DNA of 48,530 nt from Dehalococcoidia bacterium (lineage in GTDB: Bacteria > Chloroflexota > Dehalococcoidia > Tepidiformales > Tepidiformaceae). The stretch spans positions 1-48,530 of the forward strand of contig JAJEIT010000012.1 in NCBI GenBank assembly GCA_022827945.1. Direction: 5' to 3'. Of the stretch, positions 12,240-39,498 are shown one piece after another. How positions within the stretch are numbered: position 1 is the stretch's first letter; the number at the start of each line of letters is the position of its first letter. The notes beneath the pieces were generated by a model. It searched no databases. It was not told the DNA's origin and saw only the letters and a program-made list of their open reading frames with translations. Position numbers and translations under genes: made by a program.

Positions 12240-12350
12240 AAGGCGCCGGCCCTGGAGCCGGCGCCTTCTGACTGTGCCTGGTGCGGGAAAGCCGACTAGG
12301 CGTCGAAGTAGAGGGAGAACTCGTGGGGATGCGGGCGGATGTCGACCGCC
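12240..12350 (-). repeat. Original glnA 3' end and terminator (duplicated segment)
   Basis: This is the native partner of the copy at 11388. It covers the last 18 codons of glnA, the stop codon (12296-12298), a 25-bp spacer and the terminator stem AAGGCGCCGGC / GCCGGCGCCTT at 12240-12270. The pair forms imperfect direct repeats flanking hicBA. Confidence 0.8.
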
Positions 12351-13726
12351 GCCACCTCGTTCTCGCGCTTGTAGTCGATCCAGGTGCGGATCAGGTCCTC
12401 GTCGAAGACCTCGCCCTGGAGCAGGAAGTCGTGGTCCTCCTCGAGGGCGTCGAGGACGCCGCCGAGGGAGCCGGGGAGCACGGGGTAGCCGTGCTCGTGC
12501 GGGTCGATCTCGAAGAGGTCGACGTTATCGACCGGGTCGCCCGGGTCGATGCGGTTGGCGATGCCGTCGAGCCCCGCCATGAGCATGGCGGAGAAGCCGA
12601 GGTAGGGGTTGCAGGTCGGGTCCGGCGAGCGGAACTCGAGCCGCTTCGACTTCGGGTTCGAGGAGAGCATCGGGATGCGGATGCCGGCGCTGCGGTTGCG
12701 GGCGCTGTAGACGAGCACGTTGGGCGCCTCGTAGCCGGGCACGAGCCGCTTGTAGGAGTTCGTCGTGGGCGCGCAGAAGGCCATGAGGGCGGCGCCGTGC
12801 TTGATCAGGCCGCCGATGTAGTAGCGCGCCGTCTCGGAGATGAGGCCATAGCCGTTCTCGTCGTAGAACAGGTTGACCCCGTCCTTCCAGAGCGACTGGT
12901 GGACGTGCATGCCGTTGCCGTTGTCCTCGAAGACGGGCTTGGGCATGAAGGTCGCCGTCTTGCCCGCGTTGCGGGCGACGTTGCGGACGACGTGCTTGTA
13001 CCACTGGAGGTTGTCGGCCATCTGCACGAGGGGCGCGTAGCGCATGTCGATCTCGCACTGGCCGGCGGTGGCGACCTCGTGGTGGTGGATCTCCACCTGG
13101 ATGCCGACCTCCTGCATCTTCAGCACCATCTCCGTGCGGAGGTCCTGCAGGGTGTCGCGCGGGGGAACGGGGAAGTACCCCTCCTTGTGCTCGGTCTTGT
13201 AGCCGAGGTTGGGGCCGCCCTCGGTCTCCATGTCGACGCCCGTATTCCAGGCCGCCTCGACCGAATCGACGCGGTAGAAGGCCGTGTCGCGCTCGGAGTC
13301 GTAGCTGACGCTGTCGAACACGAAGAACTCGGCCTCGGGGCCCCAGAAGGACTCGTCGGCGACGCCGGTCAGCTTCAGGTACTCCTCGGCGCGCTGGGCG
13401 ACGGCGCGGGGATCCTTGTGGTAGCCCTCGGCGGTCACGGGGTCCTTGATGTCGGCCGTGATGCTGAGGGTGGTGTGGGCGGCGAAGGGGTCGAGGACCG
13501 CGGTGTCGGCATCGGGGATGAGGATCATGTCCGAGCGCTGGATGCCCTGGAAGCCGCGGATGCTGGACCCGTCGAATCCGAGCCCCTCCTCGAACGTATC
13601 CGGGCTCCACTCGCTGGGGGTCACGGAGAAGTGCTGCCACGCACCGAGCAGGTCCGTGAACTTCACATCGATGATCTGCACGCCTTCGTCGGCGATCAGC
13701 TGTTGGACTTCTTCGGGGGTCGTCAT
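12296..13726 (-). CDS. glnA: Glutamine synthetase type I, adenylylation Tyr replaced
   Basis: The 476-residue enzyme forms glutamine from glutamate, ammonia and ATP. It has the N-terminal beta-grasp (FTDLLGAWQHFSV), GFDGSSIRGF, the metal and glutamate sites (GPEAEFFVFD, then NGNGMHVHQSLW) and the ATP region with RNRSAGIRIP. In GSI-beta enzymes the adenylylated Tyr sits in a NLYDLP motif; the aligned stretch here reads DLFEIDP, with Phe near position 405. Adenylylation at that site is therefore not possible. The start is ATG 13726 with AGAGGT upstream. It follows glnK by 144 bp on the same strand and ends in a terminator. Confidence 0.95.
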   Translation of the reverse strand: MTTPEEVQQLIADEGVQIIDVKFTDLLGAWQHFSVTPSEWSPDTFEEGLGFDGSSIRGFQGIQRSDMILIPDADTAVLDPFAAHTTLSITADIKDPVTAEGYHKDPRAVAQRAEEYLKLTGVADESFWGPEAEFFVFDSVSYDSERDTAFYRVDSVEAAWNTGVDMETEGGPNLGYKTEHKEGYFPVPPRDTLQDLRTEMVLKMQEVGIQVEIHHHEVATAGQCEIDMRYAPLVQMADNLQWYKHVVRNVARNAGKTATFMPKPVFEDNGNGMHVHQSLWKDGVNLFYDENGYGLISETARYYIGGLIKHGAALMAFCAPTTNSYKRLVPGYEAPNVLVYSARNRSAGIRIPMLSSNPKSKRLEFRSPDPTCNPYLGFSAMLMAGLDGIANRIDPGDPVDNVDLFEIDPHEHGYPVLPGSLGGVLDALEEDHDFLLQGEVFDEDLIRTWIDYKRENEVAAVDIRPHPHEFSLYFDA

Positions 13727-13840: not shown

Positions 13841-13851
13841 GTTCGTGTTAC
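13841..13851 (-). promoter_or_regulatory. GTAACACGAAC box upstream of glnA
   Basis: On the minus strand the sequence GTAACACGAAC lies about 115 bp before the glnA start, 20 bp past glnK. The same GTAACACGAA core is found before the GlnR-like regulator gene at 38123. This is a candidate regulator binding site (inference). Confidence 0.4.
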
Positions 13852-13870: not shown

Positions 13871-14212
13871 TCAGAGGGCGACATCCCCCCGCTCGCCCGT
13901 GCGGACGCGGATCGCCTCCTCCACGGGAATGACGAATATCTTGCCGTCGCCGATGTTGCCCGTGCCGGCCGCCTCGATGATGGCGCTGATGGCCTTCTCG
14001 ACGGCGTCGTCCTGCACGACCATCTCGATCTTCATCTTGGGGAGCAGGTCGACGACGATGGTCTCGCCGCCGCGCCCCTGGTGGGCGATGCCGCGCTGGG
14101 CGCCGCGGCCGGTGACGGAGAGGATGTTCAGGCCGTGGATGCCCTGCGCCTCGAGGGCGTCCTTCACCTCGTGCATGCGCTCGGGTCGGATGATGGCCTC
14201 GATCTTTTTCAT
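13871..14212 (-). CDS. glnK: P-II nitrogen regulatory protein without T-loop tyrosine
   Basis: The 113-residue trimeric signal protein senses 2-oxoglutarate and ATP/ADP and controls the ammonium channel. It begins MKKIEAIIRPERMHEV and ends with the conserved GDGKIFVIPVEEAIRVRTGE. The T-loop reads GIAHQGRGGETIVV: position 51, a Tyr uridylylated or adenylylated in other bacteria, is Thr, Tyr46 is also absent, and there is one extra residue. Covalent control by GlnD is therefore unlikely. The start overlaps the amt stop by four bases (ATGA), which supports GlnK rather than GlnB as the name. Confidence 0.93.
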   Translation of the reverse strand: MKKIEAIIRPERMHEVKDALEAQGIHGLNILSVTGRGAQRGIAHQGRGGETIVVDLLPKMKIEMVVQDDAVEKAISAIIEAAGTGNIGDGKIFVIPVEEAIRVRTGERGDVAL

Positions 14213-15558
14213 GACTCGCTCCTGCCGATCTCCGGCTCACCGGGATCCTGAGACGGTTCGATGATACCGACCGGGATGGCGATACCGGCCTCATCGCTCT
14301 GGTAGGCGCGTTCCCCGTGCTGGGTCACGTCGAGGCCCACCTCCTCGTCCTCCTCGTTGACGCGGACGCCCATGGTCATGTCCAGCACCTTGAGGATGAT
14401 GAAGGTGACGATGAAGGAGTAGGCGCTGACGGCGCCGATGCCGACGATCTGGTCCCAGAGCAGGCGCCACTCGCCGTGGATGAGCCCCTCTCGGAACTCG
14501 GGCGCGCCGACGACGGCCGTCGCGAAGAGGCCGGTGCCGATTGCGCCCCAGAGGCCGCCGACGCCGTGGACGGCGACGACGTCGAGGGAGTCGTCGAAGT
14601 GCAGGTACTGGCGCAGGCGAACAGCGAAGTAGCAGAAGAGCCCCGCGCCGAAGCCGATCGCGAGCGCCTCCATGGGTTCGACGTAGCCGGAGGCGGGCGT
14701 GACCGCCACGAGTCCGGCGACGGCGCCGGAGGCGGCGCCCACGACGCTCGGTTTCCCGGACACCTTCCAGCTGATGAGCGTCCAGGTGAGGGCCGCCATG
14801 GCGGCGGCCACGTTCGTGTTGACGAAAGCGTAGACGGCCTGGCCGCTCGCTCCCACGGCGCTGCCGGCGTTGAAGCCGAACCAGCCGAACCAGAGCATGG
14901 CCGCGCCCAGCACCACCATCGTGATGTCGTGCGGCTCCATCGGTTCGACGCCGTAGCCGCGGCGCTTGCCGAAGACGAAGACGGCGGCCAGGGCGGCGAC
15001 GCCCGCGTTCACGTGGATGGCGAGGCCGCCGGCGAAGTCGAGGCCGTTGATGCCGATGTCGGCGGGGACGCCCTCACCGGAGAAGGTGTTGAGCCAGCCG
15101 TTCACGCCGAACACCCAGTGGGCGATGGGCGCGTAGACGATCAGCGACCAGAGCGCGATGAAGAGCAGGAACGGCCCGAAGCGGGCGCGCTCGGCGAAGG
15201 CGCCCGTGATGAGCGCGGGCGTGATGATGGCGAACATCATCTGGAAGGCCATGAAGAGCAGGTCGGGCACGCCGCCGGCGCCGGAGTCGACGCCGACGCC
15301 GCGGAGGCCGAAGTGCTCGAGGTTGCCGATGAGGCCGAGCCCCTGGTCGGGGCCGAAGGCCAGCGAATAGCCGACGACGACCCAGAGCACGCCCACCACG
15401 CCGATGGTGATGAACGAATGCATGATGGTGCCGACGACATTCTTGCTGCGGGTGAGTCCCCCGTAGAAGAACGCCAGGCCCGGCGTCATGAAGAGCACCA
15501 GGGCCGAGGCAGCCAGCATCCAGGCCGTGTTGCCAGCGTCGATTTGGAAGTCGGACAC
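14209..15558 (-). CDS. amt: Ammonium transporter
   Basis: About 449 residues with eleven predicted helices. Diagnostic stretches are FYGGLTRSKNVVGTIM, FAGGLAIHVNAG (first pore His), WFGWFGFNAGSA and VVAVHGVGGLWGAIGTG (second pore His). It conducts ammonium into the cell and is blocked by GlnK, encoded just downstream with a 4-bp overlap. I place the start at GTG 15558, with GGGGGG upstream; the frame extends a further 14 codons. The C-terminal tail is longer than average (through about 40 charged residues after the DEEVGLD segment). Expression is likely nitrogen-controlled, see the boxes at 15634. Confidence 0.95.
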   Translation of the reverse strand: MSDFQIDAGNTAWMLAASALVLFMTPGLAFFYGGLTRSKNVVGTIMHSFITIGVVGVLWVVVGYSLAFGPDQGLGLIGNLEHFGLRGVGVDSGAGGVPDLLFMAFQMMFAIITPALITGAFAERARFGPFLLFIALWSLIVYAPIAHWVFGVNGWLNTFSGEGVPADIGINGLDFAGGLAIHVNAGVAALAAVFVFGKRRGYGVEPMEPHDITMVVLGAAMLWFGWFGFNAGSAVGASGQAVYAFVNTNVAAAMAALTWTLISWKVSGKPSVVGAASGAVAGLVAVTPASGYVEPMEALAIGFGAGLFCYFAVRLRQYLHFDDSLDVVAVHGVGGLWGAIGTGLFATAVVGAPEFREGLIHGEWRLLWDQIVGIGAVSAYSFIVTFIILKVLDMTMGVRVNEEDEEVGLDVTQHGERAYQSDEAGIAIPVGIIEPSQDPGEPEIGRSES

Positions 15559-15633
15559 GCGCACCCCCCGCGACCCCGCGCACCGGGCGCGGGGCAGCAT
15601 CCGCTTGAGTGGCGCGTATCTTGCGCGCCCATT

Positions 15634-15649
15634 GTTTCAACGATGTTTC
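15634..15649 (-). promoter_or_regulatory. GAAAC-n6-GAAAC direct repeat before amt
   Basis: Minus strand GAAAC ATCGTT GAAAC, an 11-bp-spaced direct repeat 76 bp upstream of the amt start. This matches the b-site half of the actinobacterial GlnR box. TTGAAA overlaps the second half and could be the amt -35 element. Confidence 0.5.
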
Positions 15650-35645: not shown

Positions 35646-35765
35646 CCCACTCAGCGGCGCGATAGCGACGCGCTCCACTCAGCGATGGCGCGCAGCGCCG
35701 AGCGCTCTCCTCAGGCGGGCGGCAGCCCGCCGCTCCACTCAGCGAGCGCAGCGAGTGCTCTCCTA
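35646..35765 (+). repeat. Palindromic linker-arm repeat array D
   Basis: Linkers CCACTCAG, CGCTCCACTCAG, CGCTCTCCTCAG, CGCTCCACTCAG and a terminal TGCTCTCCTA separate arms such as GCGGGC..GCCCGC. The last CTA (35763-35765) is the reverse of the portal-protein stop codon. It is the largest array after A and B and occupies most of the gap between the DUF2269-like gene and the portal gene. Confidence 0.8.
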
Positions 35766-37073
35766 CCCCGGCAGCGCGGCGCGCTCCTCCTGGACGCGCG
35801 CCCATTCGGCTTCGGGGTCCTCGGAGCCGAGGCGTTCGGCGGCGGTTCGGCGGGAGCGGATGCCCGCCTCGACGAGCGAGCGCTCGTCGGCGACCTGGCG
35901 GGAGCGGTCGGCGGGGAGGACGGGGCCCCACAGCGCCTCCGCCTGCAGGCCGTCGATGGGCAGCCCCTCGTAGCGCGCGAGCAGGCGCAGGGCGAGCATC
36001 GCGCGGCGCTCGTAGACGGGCGTGCGGATGAGCCGCTTGCGCGCGACCTTCCGCGCCACCGGGTCGAGCTCGACGTTGAGGGCGACGCCGCTCAGGCCCG
36101 CGGGGTTCTGCCCGAAGGCCGTGCGAGGGGACTCCCCGAGGTCGTGCAGGGTGCGGTAGACGAGGTCGATGTAGTCGCGGTGGAGGGCGGCTCCGCCGCC
36201 CTGCAGCAGGTCGAGCAGGTAGGCGCGGGCGCGCTCCGGCACCTCCCACACGGCCCCCGGCTCGACAGCGATGTCCTGCGACCCGGCCACGCCCTCGAGC
36301 ACGGCGATGGGATTGCCCGAAAGCTCCAGTATCTGGCTGAGCTGGCTGAAGGCGCGGTTCAGCTCGCGGTTCGGTTCGGCCAGCGGCCCGATGTCGCTTG
36401 AGCCCCACGGCTGCTTCGGCTCACTCACGTTGGGGAAGACGACGAAGGGAATGAACCCGTACGGGTTCTCCTCGCGGCGCTCCAGCTCCGGCCCGCGCCA
36501 CAGCTCGAACGTCTCCGCCGTCCAGCGCTCCGTCACGACGTTGTCGACGGCCGAGGGGGAGAGGGGCAGGGTGGACGTGGGGAGGGGCGCGTCGCCGGCG
36601 GCGTACTGCGAGGCGACCGCCTCGATGCGCGAGGCGTCGTCGGGGGCGCGCCAGACGAAGACGCCTTGCACGTCGGGCGCGGAGATGCGCACGCGTCCCT
36701 CGTCCACGTCCCACGTGACCTTGTAGGCGCCGTCGCCGAGCACGGCGCAGTCGAGCTCCGTCTCGAAGTCGAGCCGCTCGAGCCCGTTCGCCGCTTCGAC
36801 GGCGCGCCAGGCCTGCTCGGCTGCCCGCGCGCGCTCGACGGCAGCGCGGTCGAGCGGGTCGAGCGGACGGACCTGGAGGGCGTGTCCTTCGAACAGGTAG
36901 CTCGTGATCTTGTCGACGAACGCCCTCGCGTAGTTGAGCACGAGGCGGCGCTCGCCGCGGCGGGCGCGTCCCGCCCACTGGTCGCCCTCGTAGAAGGCGA
37001 GGTGCTCGCGGTAGCGGCGCAGGCGGTCCTGGTCGAGGGCGCGGAGCTGGAGGGGGAAGGGGGTGGCCGTCAC
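35763..37073 (-). CDS. Phage portal protein (SPP1 gp6 type)
   Basis: The 436-residue protein starts at GTG 37073, with CGGAG upstream. RRYREHLAFYEGDQW and LVLNYARAFVDKITSYLFEG are the classical N-terminal signature of SPP1-like portals, the ring through which DNA enters the head. The middle has NPYGFIPFVVFPN and PNRELNRAFSQLSQILELSG, the C-terminus a tail of clip/crown helices. The frame is complete and the length is normal for the family. It is flanked by a host DUF2269-like gene and clpS, with no other phage gene adjacent; the stop abuts array D. Confidence 0.88.
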   Translation of the reverse strand: MTATPFPLQLRALDQDRLRRYREHLAFYEGDQWAGRARRGERRLVLNYARAFVDKITSYLFEGHALQVRPLDPLDRAAVERARAAEQAWRAVEAANGLERLDFETELDCAVLGDGAYKVTWDVDEGRVRISAPDVQGVFVWRAPDDASRIEAVASQYAAGDAPLPTSTLPLSPSAVDNVVTERWTAETFELWRGPELERREENPYGFIPFVVFPNVSEPKQPWGSSDIGPLAEPNRELNRAFSQLSQILELSGNPIAVLEGVAGSQDIAVEPGAVWEVPERARAYLLDLLQGGGAALHRDYIDLVYRTLHDLGESPRTAFGQNPAGLSGVALNVELDPVARKVARKRLIRTPVYERRAMLALRLLARYEGLPIDGLQAEALWGPVLPADRSRQVADERSLVEAGIRSRRTAAERLGSEDPEAEWARVQEERAALPG

Positions 37074-38111: not shown

Positions 38112-38134
38112 GTAACCCGCCGGTAACACGAAAC
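38112..38134 (+). promoter_or_regulatory. GTAAC-n6-GTAAC-n2-GAAAC box before the GlnR-like gene
   Basis: GTAAC (38112-38116), six bases, GTAAC (38123-38127), two bases, GAAAC (38130-38134). The GTAAC copies have the 11-bp period of GlnR half-sites, and the box lies about 26 bp before the TATACT (-10) of the regulator. Its GTAACACGAA core is also found before glnA. Confidence 0.55.
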
Positions 38135-38172
38135 GCGATGGCAGAACGCTTCCCCTGCCTATACTGGGGTTC

Positions 38173-38832
38173 GTGAACGCCGTACTGATTGTCAGCGGCC
38201 AGCCGGATCTGCTCGCCCTTACCCCGGAGCTGGAGGAGGCGGGCCTGAGCACGACCGTGCTCGAACCCGCCCGCCTGGGAGACATCGAGCGCGACTTCAC
38301 CGGCGTGCTCCTGCTCGACCTGCGCGATCTCTCCAACGTCGCCATCGACCGGCTGGCCGCGGCCTCGGGCGAGCACGAGCTCGTGCTCGTGTACGCGTGC
38401 GGAGAGGACCAGCTGGACCGCATGCCCTTCGACTCGCCCGCCGACGACTTCATCGTGCTGCCCGCCACCCATGGCGAGCTGCGCCGCCGGGTCGAGCGCG
38501 CCCTCTACCGCCGCCACGGCATCGACACCGAGAACTTCGTGCGCTGCGGCGCCCTTACCATCGACCTCGCCAACTACCGCGTGACCGTGGCGGGCGAGTC
38601 GGTCGTGCTCACGTTCAAGGAGTACGAACTCCTCCGCTATCTCGCCATGAACGCGGGCCGCGTCTCCACGCGCGAGCAGCTGCTGAACCGCGTCTGGGGC
38701 TACGACTACTTCGGCGGCGCACGCACGGTCGACGTCCACATCCGGCGCATCCGCTCGAAGATCGAGATCCACGGCCACACGTTCATCGAGACCGTGCGCA
38801 ACGTGGGCTACCGGCTGGTCGCTTCCGGCTGA
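38173..38832 (+). CDS. Orphan OmpR-family response regulator, GlnR-like
   Basis: The 219-residue protein has a degenerate receiver: the N-terminal acidic pair is missing, Asp49 remains in LLLDLRDL, and the usual Lys is replaced in FIVLPATH. The C-terminal winged helix (about 125-217) reads LTFKEYELLRYLAMNAGRVS and VWGYDYFGGARTVDVHIRRIRSKI in short form, closely resembling actinobacterial GlnR, an atypical regulator of glnA and amt. No histidine kinase is adjacent. TATACT ends seven bases before the GTG. I infer phosphorylation-independent control of nitrogen genes. Confidence 0.85.
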   Translation: MNAVLIVSGQPDLLALTPELEEAGLSTTVLEPARLGDIERDFTGVLLLDLRDLSNVAIDRLAAASGEHELVLVYACGEDQLDRMPFDSPADDFIVLPATHGELRRRVERALYRRHGIDTENFVRCGALTIDLANYRVTVAGESVVLTFKEYELLRYLAMNAGRVSTREQLLNRVWGYDYFGGARTVDVHIRRIRSKIEIHGHTFIETVRNVGYRLVASG

Positions 38833-38895
38833 GGCGCGAACCCGGGTGACAGGCGCGCCTTCCCGCTCGGGCGGGGCCGCGCCACCGTGGCCCCC

Positions 38896-39498
38896 ATGAC
38901 GACGACGACCCTGCCCGACATCCGTGACCGCGTCCGCAGCGACCTGCGCGACCTCGACCCTGAGGCCGCCCGCTGGAGCGACGCCGAGCTTGACCGGCAC
39001 ATCTCCCGCGCCCTCGCCGACGTGAGCCTGGCGGCGCCCGCCGAGGCGACGACGATCGTCGCCACGACCCCCGGCAGCCGCGAGCTCACGACCGCCGTGC
39101 TGCCCAACTTCCTCGCGCTGGAGTCGGTGGAGCTGCCCATCGACACGTTCTCCCGCCGCCACGTCCCTTTCTCGGTCTGGGCGGAGACGATCACGCTGGA
39201 GCCACCGGCGCCGCCGAAGGGCGAGCGCGCACGGCTGCGCTACCTCGCCCGCCACACGCTCGACGACCAGGGCACGACGCTTCCGGAAGCGCTCGAGGAC
39301 GTGCTCGCGACGGGCGCCGCCGGACATGCCGCGATCGCCTGGGCCGCCTACGCGATCGACCGGCTGACGGCGGGCGACGACGTTGCCGAGCGCTTCCGCC
39401 TCTGGGGCGAGGGGCGCCTGCGCAGCTTCCGCGAGCAGCTCCGGGAGCAGGAACGCCCGCGCCGGGTGCGGAGCCGGAGGCCGGCCGCCACCGACTGA
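38896..39498 (+). CDS. Phage head-tail connector-like protein
   Basis: About 200 residues from ATG 38896 (GTG 38887 is an alternative). It starts TLPDIRDRVRSDLRDLD and has ARWSDAELDRHISRALAD, the pattern of phage gp6-like/adaptor proteins that bind under the portal. The rest is mixed, with an Arg-rich C-terminus (RPRRVRSRRPAATD). No other phage gene is adjacent; the GlnR-like regulator and LysM gene flank it. The fold assignment is moderate, as such proteins are divergent. Confidence 0.6.
   Translation: MTTTTLPDIRDRVRSDLRDLDPEAARWSDAELDRHISRALADVSLAAPAEATTIVATTPGSRELTTAVLPNFLALESVELPIDTFSRRHVPFSVWAETITLEPPAPPKGERARLRYLARHTLDDQGTTLPEALEDVLATGAAGHAAIAWAAYAIDRLTAGDDVAERFRLWGEGRLRSFREQLREQERPRRVRSRRPAATD

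Follow-up and report, generated by a model that had tools for sequence, protein, structure and literature searches.

A GlnR-type Orphan Regulator and 11-bp-phased GWAAC Boxes before Ammonium Transporter Genes in Dehalococcoidia

Introduction

In actinomycetes, GlnR is regarded as the master regulator of nitrogen (PMC10704036). Its published box reads gTnAc-n6-GaAAc or GTnAC-n6-GTnAC (PMC10704036, PMC5826061). In actinobacterial GlnR, Asp50 is not phosphorylated but holds the dimer together with Arg52 (PMC10704036), and a 2025 review describes the on/off switching of such pseudo-receivers as a mystery (PMC12632262). The MerR-type GlnR/TnrA of Bacillus shares the name and the nitrogen role only, and its protein family is unrelated (PMC10704036). 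No paper on GlnR in Chloroflexota was found in the literature searched, most subscription journals lying outside it.

Here we describe a GlnR-type regulator gene in a stretch of 48,530 nucleotides (the window) from a Dehalococcoidia bacterium of the family Tepidiformaceae. The system shares with actinobacterial GlnR (M. tuberculosis 8hih and 8hig, and Streptomyces coelicolor) its fold, domain order and clade, an atypical orphan receiver with an Asp, and consensus boxes with 11-bp phasing before ammonium transporter operons. It differs in belonging to another phylum, in the frequent linkage of the Dehalococcoidia regulator gene to amt or glnA, in the frequent loss of the Asp in the wider Dehalococcoidia, and in that no GlnD/GlnE-type enzyme was found in Tepidiformaceae. 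RegX3, MtrA, PhoB and KdpE are members of the same superfamily and share the winged helix and the binding to direct repeats, which is predicted for the present regulator. Unlike it, they keep the full phosphorylation site, fall in a separate clade and recognise a different half-site. The kind of regulator is known, but its lineage is unexpected; as far as the searched literature shows, the regulator and its pairing with the boxes are new for the phylum.

Results

Table 1. Features of the regulator locus and of the amt1-glnB-glnA cluster, with positions in the window
Feature	Position	Strand	Remarks
glnA, type I glutamine synthetase	12296-13726	-	Phe in place of the adenylylation Tyr
GTAACACGAAC in the glnB-glnA gap	13841-13851	-	one GTAAC half-site within a longer invariant block
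glnB, PII protein	13871-14212	-	4-base overlap with the amt1 end; no Tyr51 in the T-loop
amt1, ammonium transporter	14209-15600	-	TIGR00836, PF00909; leads the amt-glnB-glnA cluster
GlnR-type box GAAAC-ATCGTT-GAAAC	15634-15649	-	before amt1
GlnR-type box GTAAC-CCGCCG-GTAAC	38112-38127	+	upstream of the regulator's own promoter
Extra GAAAC, n2 after the own box (AC-GAAAC)	38130-38134	+	off the 11-bp register
Sigma-70-like promoter ATGGCA-N16-TATACT	38138-38165	+	-10 lies 7 bases 5' of the regulator GTG
GlnR-type orphan regulator ORF	38173-38832	+	GTG start, 219 aa
Regulator domains			N-terminal pseudo-receiver, residues ~1-115; C-terminal winged-helix DNA-binding domain, residues ~122-219

Regulator gene and protein

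The sole Pfam match of the regulator was the OmpR-type C-terminal domain. In NCBIfam, PhoB was the top match but remained below threshold (106 bits versus a cut-off of 296), and the other models were also far under theirs. Against the PDB, M. tuberculosis GlnR 8hih ranked first and GlnR 8hig second, with RegX3 a close third. The DNA-binding domain shares 54-56% identity with those of the solved GlnRs, versus 46% for RegX3, 39% for MtrA and 34% for KdpE. The close likeness of this domain to actinobacterial GlnR, claimed in the initial annotation, is confirmed. In the alignment, the regulator carries the residues diagnostic of the GlnR side at Gly182 (76 of 76 rows), Arg191 and Asn210.

The receiver had also been said to lack key residues. 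Indeed, in the alignment it has no acidic pair, Thr or Lys; Asp49, however, is retained. Asp49 and Arg51 are present in all 13 Tepidiformaceae rows, whereas an Asp at position 49 is kept in just 19 of the 41 other Dehalococcoidia rows, and the receivers of the wider class differ. The AlphaFold model (mean pLDDT 89) shows a receiver-like fold and a winged helix. Foldseek matched this model to OmpR/PhoB regulators, GlnR included; with whole-chain TM-scores of about 0.4-0.6, a differing domain arrangement in the model and no preference for GlnR, these matches support the fold only.

Since the -10 element is only 7 bases before the GTG, the regulator mRNA is probably leaderless. No sensor kinase gene was recognised among the neighbours examined, which encode DUF2442, DUF4160, phage-type portal and adaptor, LysM, RadC, capsule-type and HAD proteins. 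The phage-type portal (35763-37073, minus strand) and the SU10-type adaptor (38887-39498, plus strand) closely flank the regulator amid cellular genes, and this pair may represent a remnant or domesticated element of phage origin.

Placement in the GlnR family

A maximum-likelihood tree was built from 56 proteins, with the actinobacterial GlnRs drawn from genomes of that phylum and a chosen sample of canonical regulators as the outgroup. A branch with 100/100 support separated the regulator and GlnR from the 16 canonical regulators. The GlnR superclade comprised the regulator and its family, Dehalococcoidia homologues, actinobacterial GlnR (with 8hih and 8hig), and homologues from Acidimicrobiia and Armatimonadota. 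In a larger quick tree, the support for this superclade was also 100; over the two trees the outgroup comprised 16-17 regulators. Thus, the regulator groups with GlnR, apart from the RegX3, MtrA and KdpE types, and not with the PhoB-like regulators, the grouping by which the initial annotation would have been overturned. By the features that could be tested, the imperfect glnA site apart, the regulator is a member of the GlnR family.

Boxes in the window and in the genome

The pattern GWAAC-N6-GWAAC occurs twice in the window, before the regulator and before amt1; the mean of shuffled sequences was 0.04, and no shuffle reached two. In the 2.85-Mb genome, seven sites were detected versus two for the reversed pattern. 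Equal frequency of the motif at random sites, which the initial annotation had named as a refutation, was thus not observed. Three of the seven boxes precede nitrogen genes, namely the regulator, amt1 and a second amt (amt2, contig C1). Of the other four, one is part of a 16S rRNA gene (identified by eye from its sequence), one falls within an open frame, one follows a response-regulator gene, and one separates two genes of the minus strand, with the box in the opposite orientation. Upstream of amt2 the array is longer, GAAAC-N6-GAAAC-N6-GCAAT-N6-GAAAC; it holds the 11-bp register and is conserved in the genus. The region upstream of the third amt of the same genome (contig C25, L176) carries no box.

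Matching boxes had been reported at three nitrogen loci, the regulator, amt1 and glnA, with the n6 spacing of GlnR boxes. The letters and positions were exact, and the boxes of the regulator and amt1 fit the published consensus. As for glnA, the site was rejected as an n6 box; it is a single conserved GTAAC half-site, and the weak part of an otherwise largely supported interpretation. The GAAAC that follows the regulator's own box by two bases was likewise rejected as a third site: it is out of register and missing in some members of the genus, and its role is doubtful.

Conservation within the genus was analysed at each of these sites. Before amt1, GCGAAACATNGTTGAAACA is invariant in seven genus genomes, with variable DNA on either side. 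Within the amt1 box itself one spacer base varies among the seven and the rest is invariant, and a conserved -10-like GATAC lies about 14 bases past its end. The regulator's box and -10 are kept in six genus genomes in which the upstream DNA is otherwise different; the box has decayed in one further genome and is absent in another. In the glnB-glnA gap, a block with the single GTAAC is invariant in six genus genomes.

PII and glutamine synthetase

The initial annotation had read the boxes together with lost tyrosines as a sign of transcriptional control of nitrogen assimilation outside Actinobacteria. Neither the PII T-loop nor the adenylylation position of glutamine synthetase holds a Tyr, consistent with that statement, where we take the E. 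coli reference residues to define the modifiable positions. With the shared domain PF08335 as the sole criterion, none of 21 family genomes yielded a GlnD/GlnE-type enzyme; a control search detected this domain in E. coli, Caulobacter and Corynebacterium. Because both the GlnD/GlnE domain and the modifiable tyrosines are missing, ammonium assimilation is likely controlled mainly at the level of transcription rather than through covalent modification. Proper boxes precede glnA in other Dehalococcoidia; in the window there is the one conserved half-site. Here, transcription of glnA may start mainly at the amt promoter.

Comparison across the family, class and phylum

GWAAC-N6-GWAAC was detected within 300 bases upstream of 17 of the 27 family amt genes, in 16 cases on the coding strand; shuffled sequences gave a mean of 0.03, and the reversed sequence gave none. 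The strict box was absent upstream of the other ten. In the class Dehalococcoidia, the regulator gene lies directly before amt or glnA in more than 20 loci, and the gaps at most of these loci contain one to four G[TAC]AAC units with 11-bp spacing, nearly all on the coding strand. Of such glnR-amt/glnA gaps, 15 of 23 contain GWAAC-N6-GWAAC (shuffled, 0.05). When the distances between GWAAC units were counted in 50 amt-upstream and gap regions, spacings of 6 (51 times), 17 (38 times), 28 (26 times) and 39 (8 times) were found, an exact 11-bp period; any other spacing up to 39 occurred at most once. A box before the regulator's own gene was rejected as a general trait, being limited to the close relatives and missing from the remaining family members.

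The triple box GNAAC-N6-GNAAC-N6-GNAAC gave 120 matches versus 30 for the reversed pattern in 197 Dehalococcoidia genomes, and at many of the loci examined amt or glnA was the next gene. No enrichment was observed in the other Chloroflexota classes (106 versus 108 in 177 genomes). No GlnR-like protein was seen in these classes either: the best matches were weak, and seven of them, when placed in the larger quick tree, all fell with the canonical regulators. Among the Chloroflexota genomes compared, box enrichment therefore follows the presence of the regulator.

Discussion

We conclude with high confidence (probability about 0.88) that the gene encodes an orphan regulator of the GlnR family that would act through 11-bp-phased GWAAC boxes and most likely activates amt1-glnB(-glnA), amt2 and its own gene. 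The gene, the boxes, their conservation, the phylogeny and the gene linkage were observed directly, and from them we infer binding, activation, the nitrogen signal and autoregulation as follows. The winged helix would bind the phased direct repeats upstream of the amt1-glnB(-glnA), amt2 and own promoters. If the actinobacterial complex of GlnR with RNA polymerase is taken as a guide, the protein would probably bind head to tail and assist the polymerase. The targets are most likely activated under nitrogen shortage. The pseudo-receiver probably holds the dimer together, and would not be switched by a histidine kinase.

A regulator of phosphate or envelope functions of the PhoB/RegX3 type, linked to nitrogen genes by coincidence, might be considered, given that PhoB is the best NCBIfam match, albeit sub-threshold, that RegX3 stands third in the PDB list, and that 11-bp direct repeats are general in the OmpR/PhoB family. 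This is scarcely credible in view of the PhoB score far under its cut-off, the separation from RegX3, MtrA and KdpE in the tree, the receiver without catalytic residues, and the class-wide occurrence of GWAAC boxes before amt and glnA. Switching of a GlnR-clade nitrogen regulator by a histidine kinase through Asp49 would explain why this residue is present in every Tepidiformaceae row. We regard it as very unlikely, however: the acidic pair, Thr and Lys are gone, and none of the neighbouring genes examined was recognised as encoding a kinase. Moreover, about half of the homologues from other Dehalococcoidia have lost the Asp, and that of actinobacterial GlnR serves the dimer in unphosphorylated form (PMC10704036).

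The sign of regulation is not fixed by anything in the sequence, and the regulator could bind the same boxes as a repressor that shuts off amt in nitrogen excess. Mycobacterial GlnR is reported to repress some genes as well (PMC7886694). On the other hand, the own box lies upstream of the -35 and the amt1 box about 14 bases before the -10-like GATAC, an activator-like placement, and Streptomyces amtB is strongly activated by GlnR (PMC5826061). Repression is accordingly unlikely, and activation is the reading that we prefer.

The branching order inside the GlnR superclade was poorly resolved, so that ancient descent and transfer are not separable in the tree. We suggest tentatively, at somewhat less than even odds, that the GlnR regulon is ancient and common to Actinomycetota, Dehalococcoidia and Armatimonadota, and that many Dehalococcoidia versions work without the Asp and are signalled otherwise, for example by a partner protein or a ligand. 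If Dehalococcoidia receivers do work without it, the nitrogen signal must arrive by a chemistry that does not involve the Asp. Natural variants without the dimer-holding Asp make the role of this residue, and of the receiver, testable. The class-wide presence of a GlnR-type regulon in another phylum also provides an outgroup for the origin of GlnR, and makes it possible to predict regulons in Dehalococcoidia, a group in which many members are represented by assembled genomes alone.

Several further loci with triple boxes were observed. In four f86 genomes of another Chloroflexota class (L291-L294), a triple box, GAAACNNATNAGTAACTCNANTGTAAC, is conserved, and no GlnR-like protein was seen. Genome G379, also of another class, has six triple boxes (L289 and other sites), some of them GTAACCG-rich, and zero matches in the reversed control; these perhaps belong to a different OmpR-type regulon. 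At one locus (G111:C127, L186), two regulator-like matches follow each other. The second is an open frame of about 100 aa that contains the DNA-binding domain only; triple-box arrays lie on both sides of it, the later one followed by amt. In Tepidiforma and one other genus, a triple GlnR-type box precedes a conserved GNAT acetyltransferase gene (L178, box 991; L179; L190). In Saccharopolyspora, GlnR controls the acetyltransferase AcuA, which acts on glutamine synthetase (PMC8603916).
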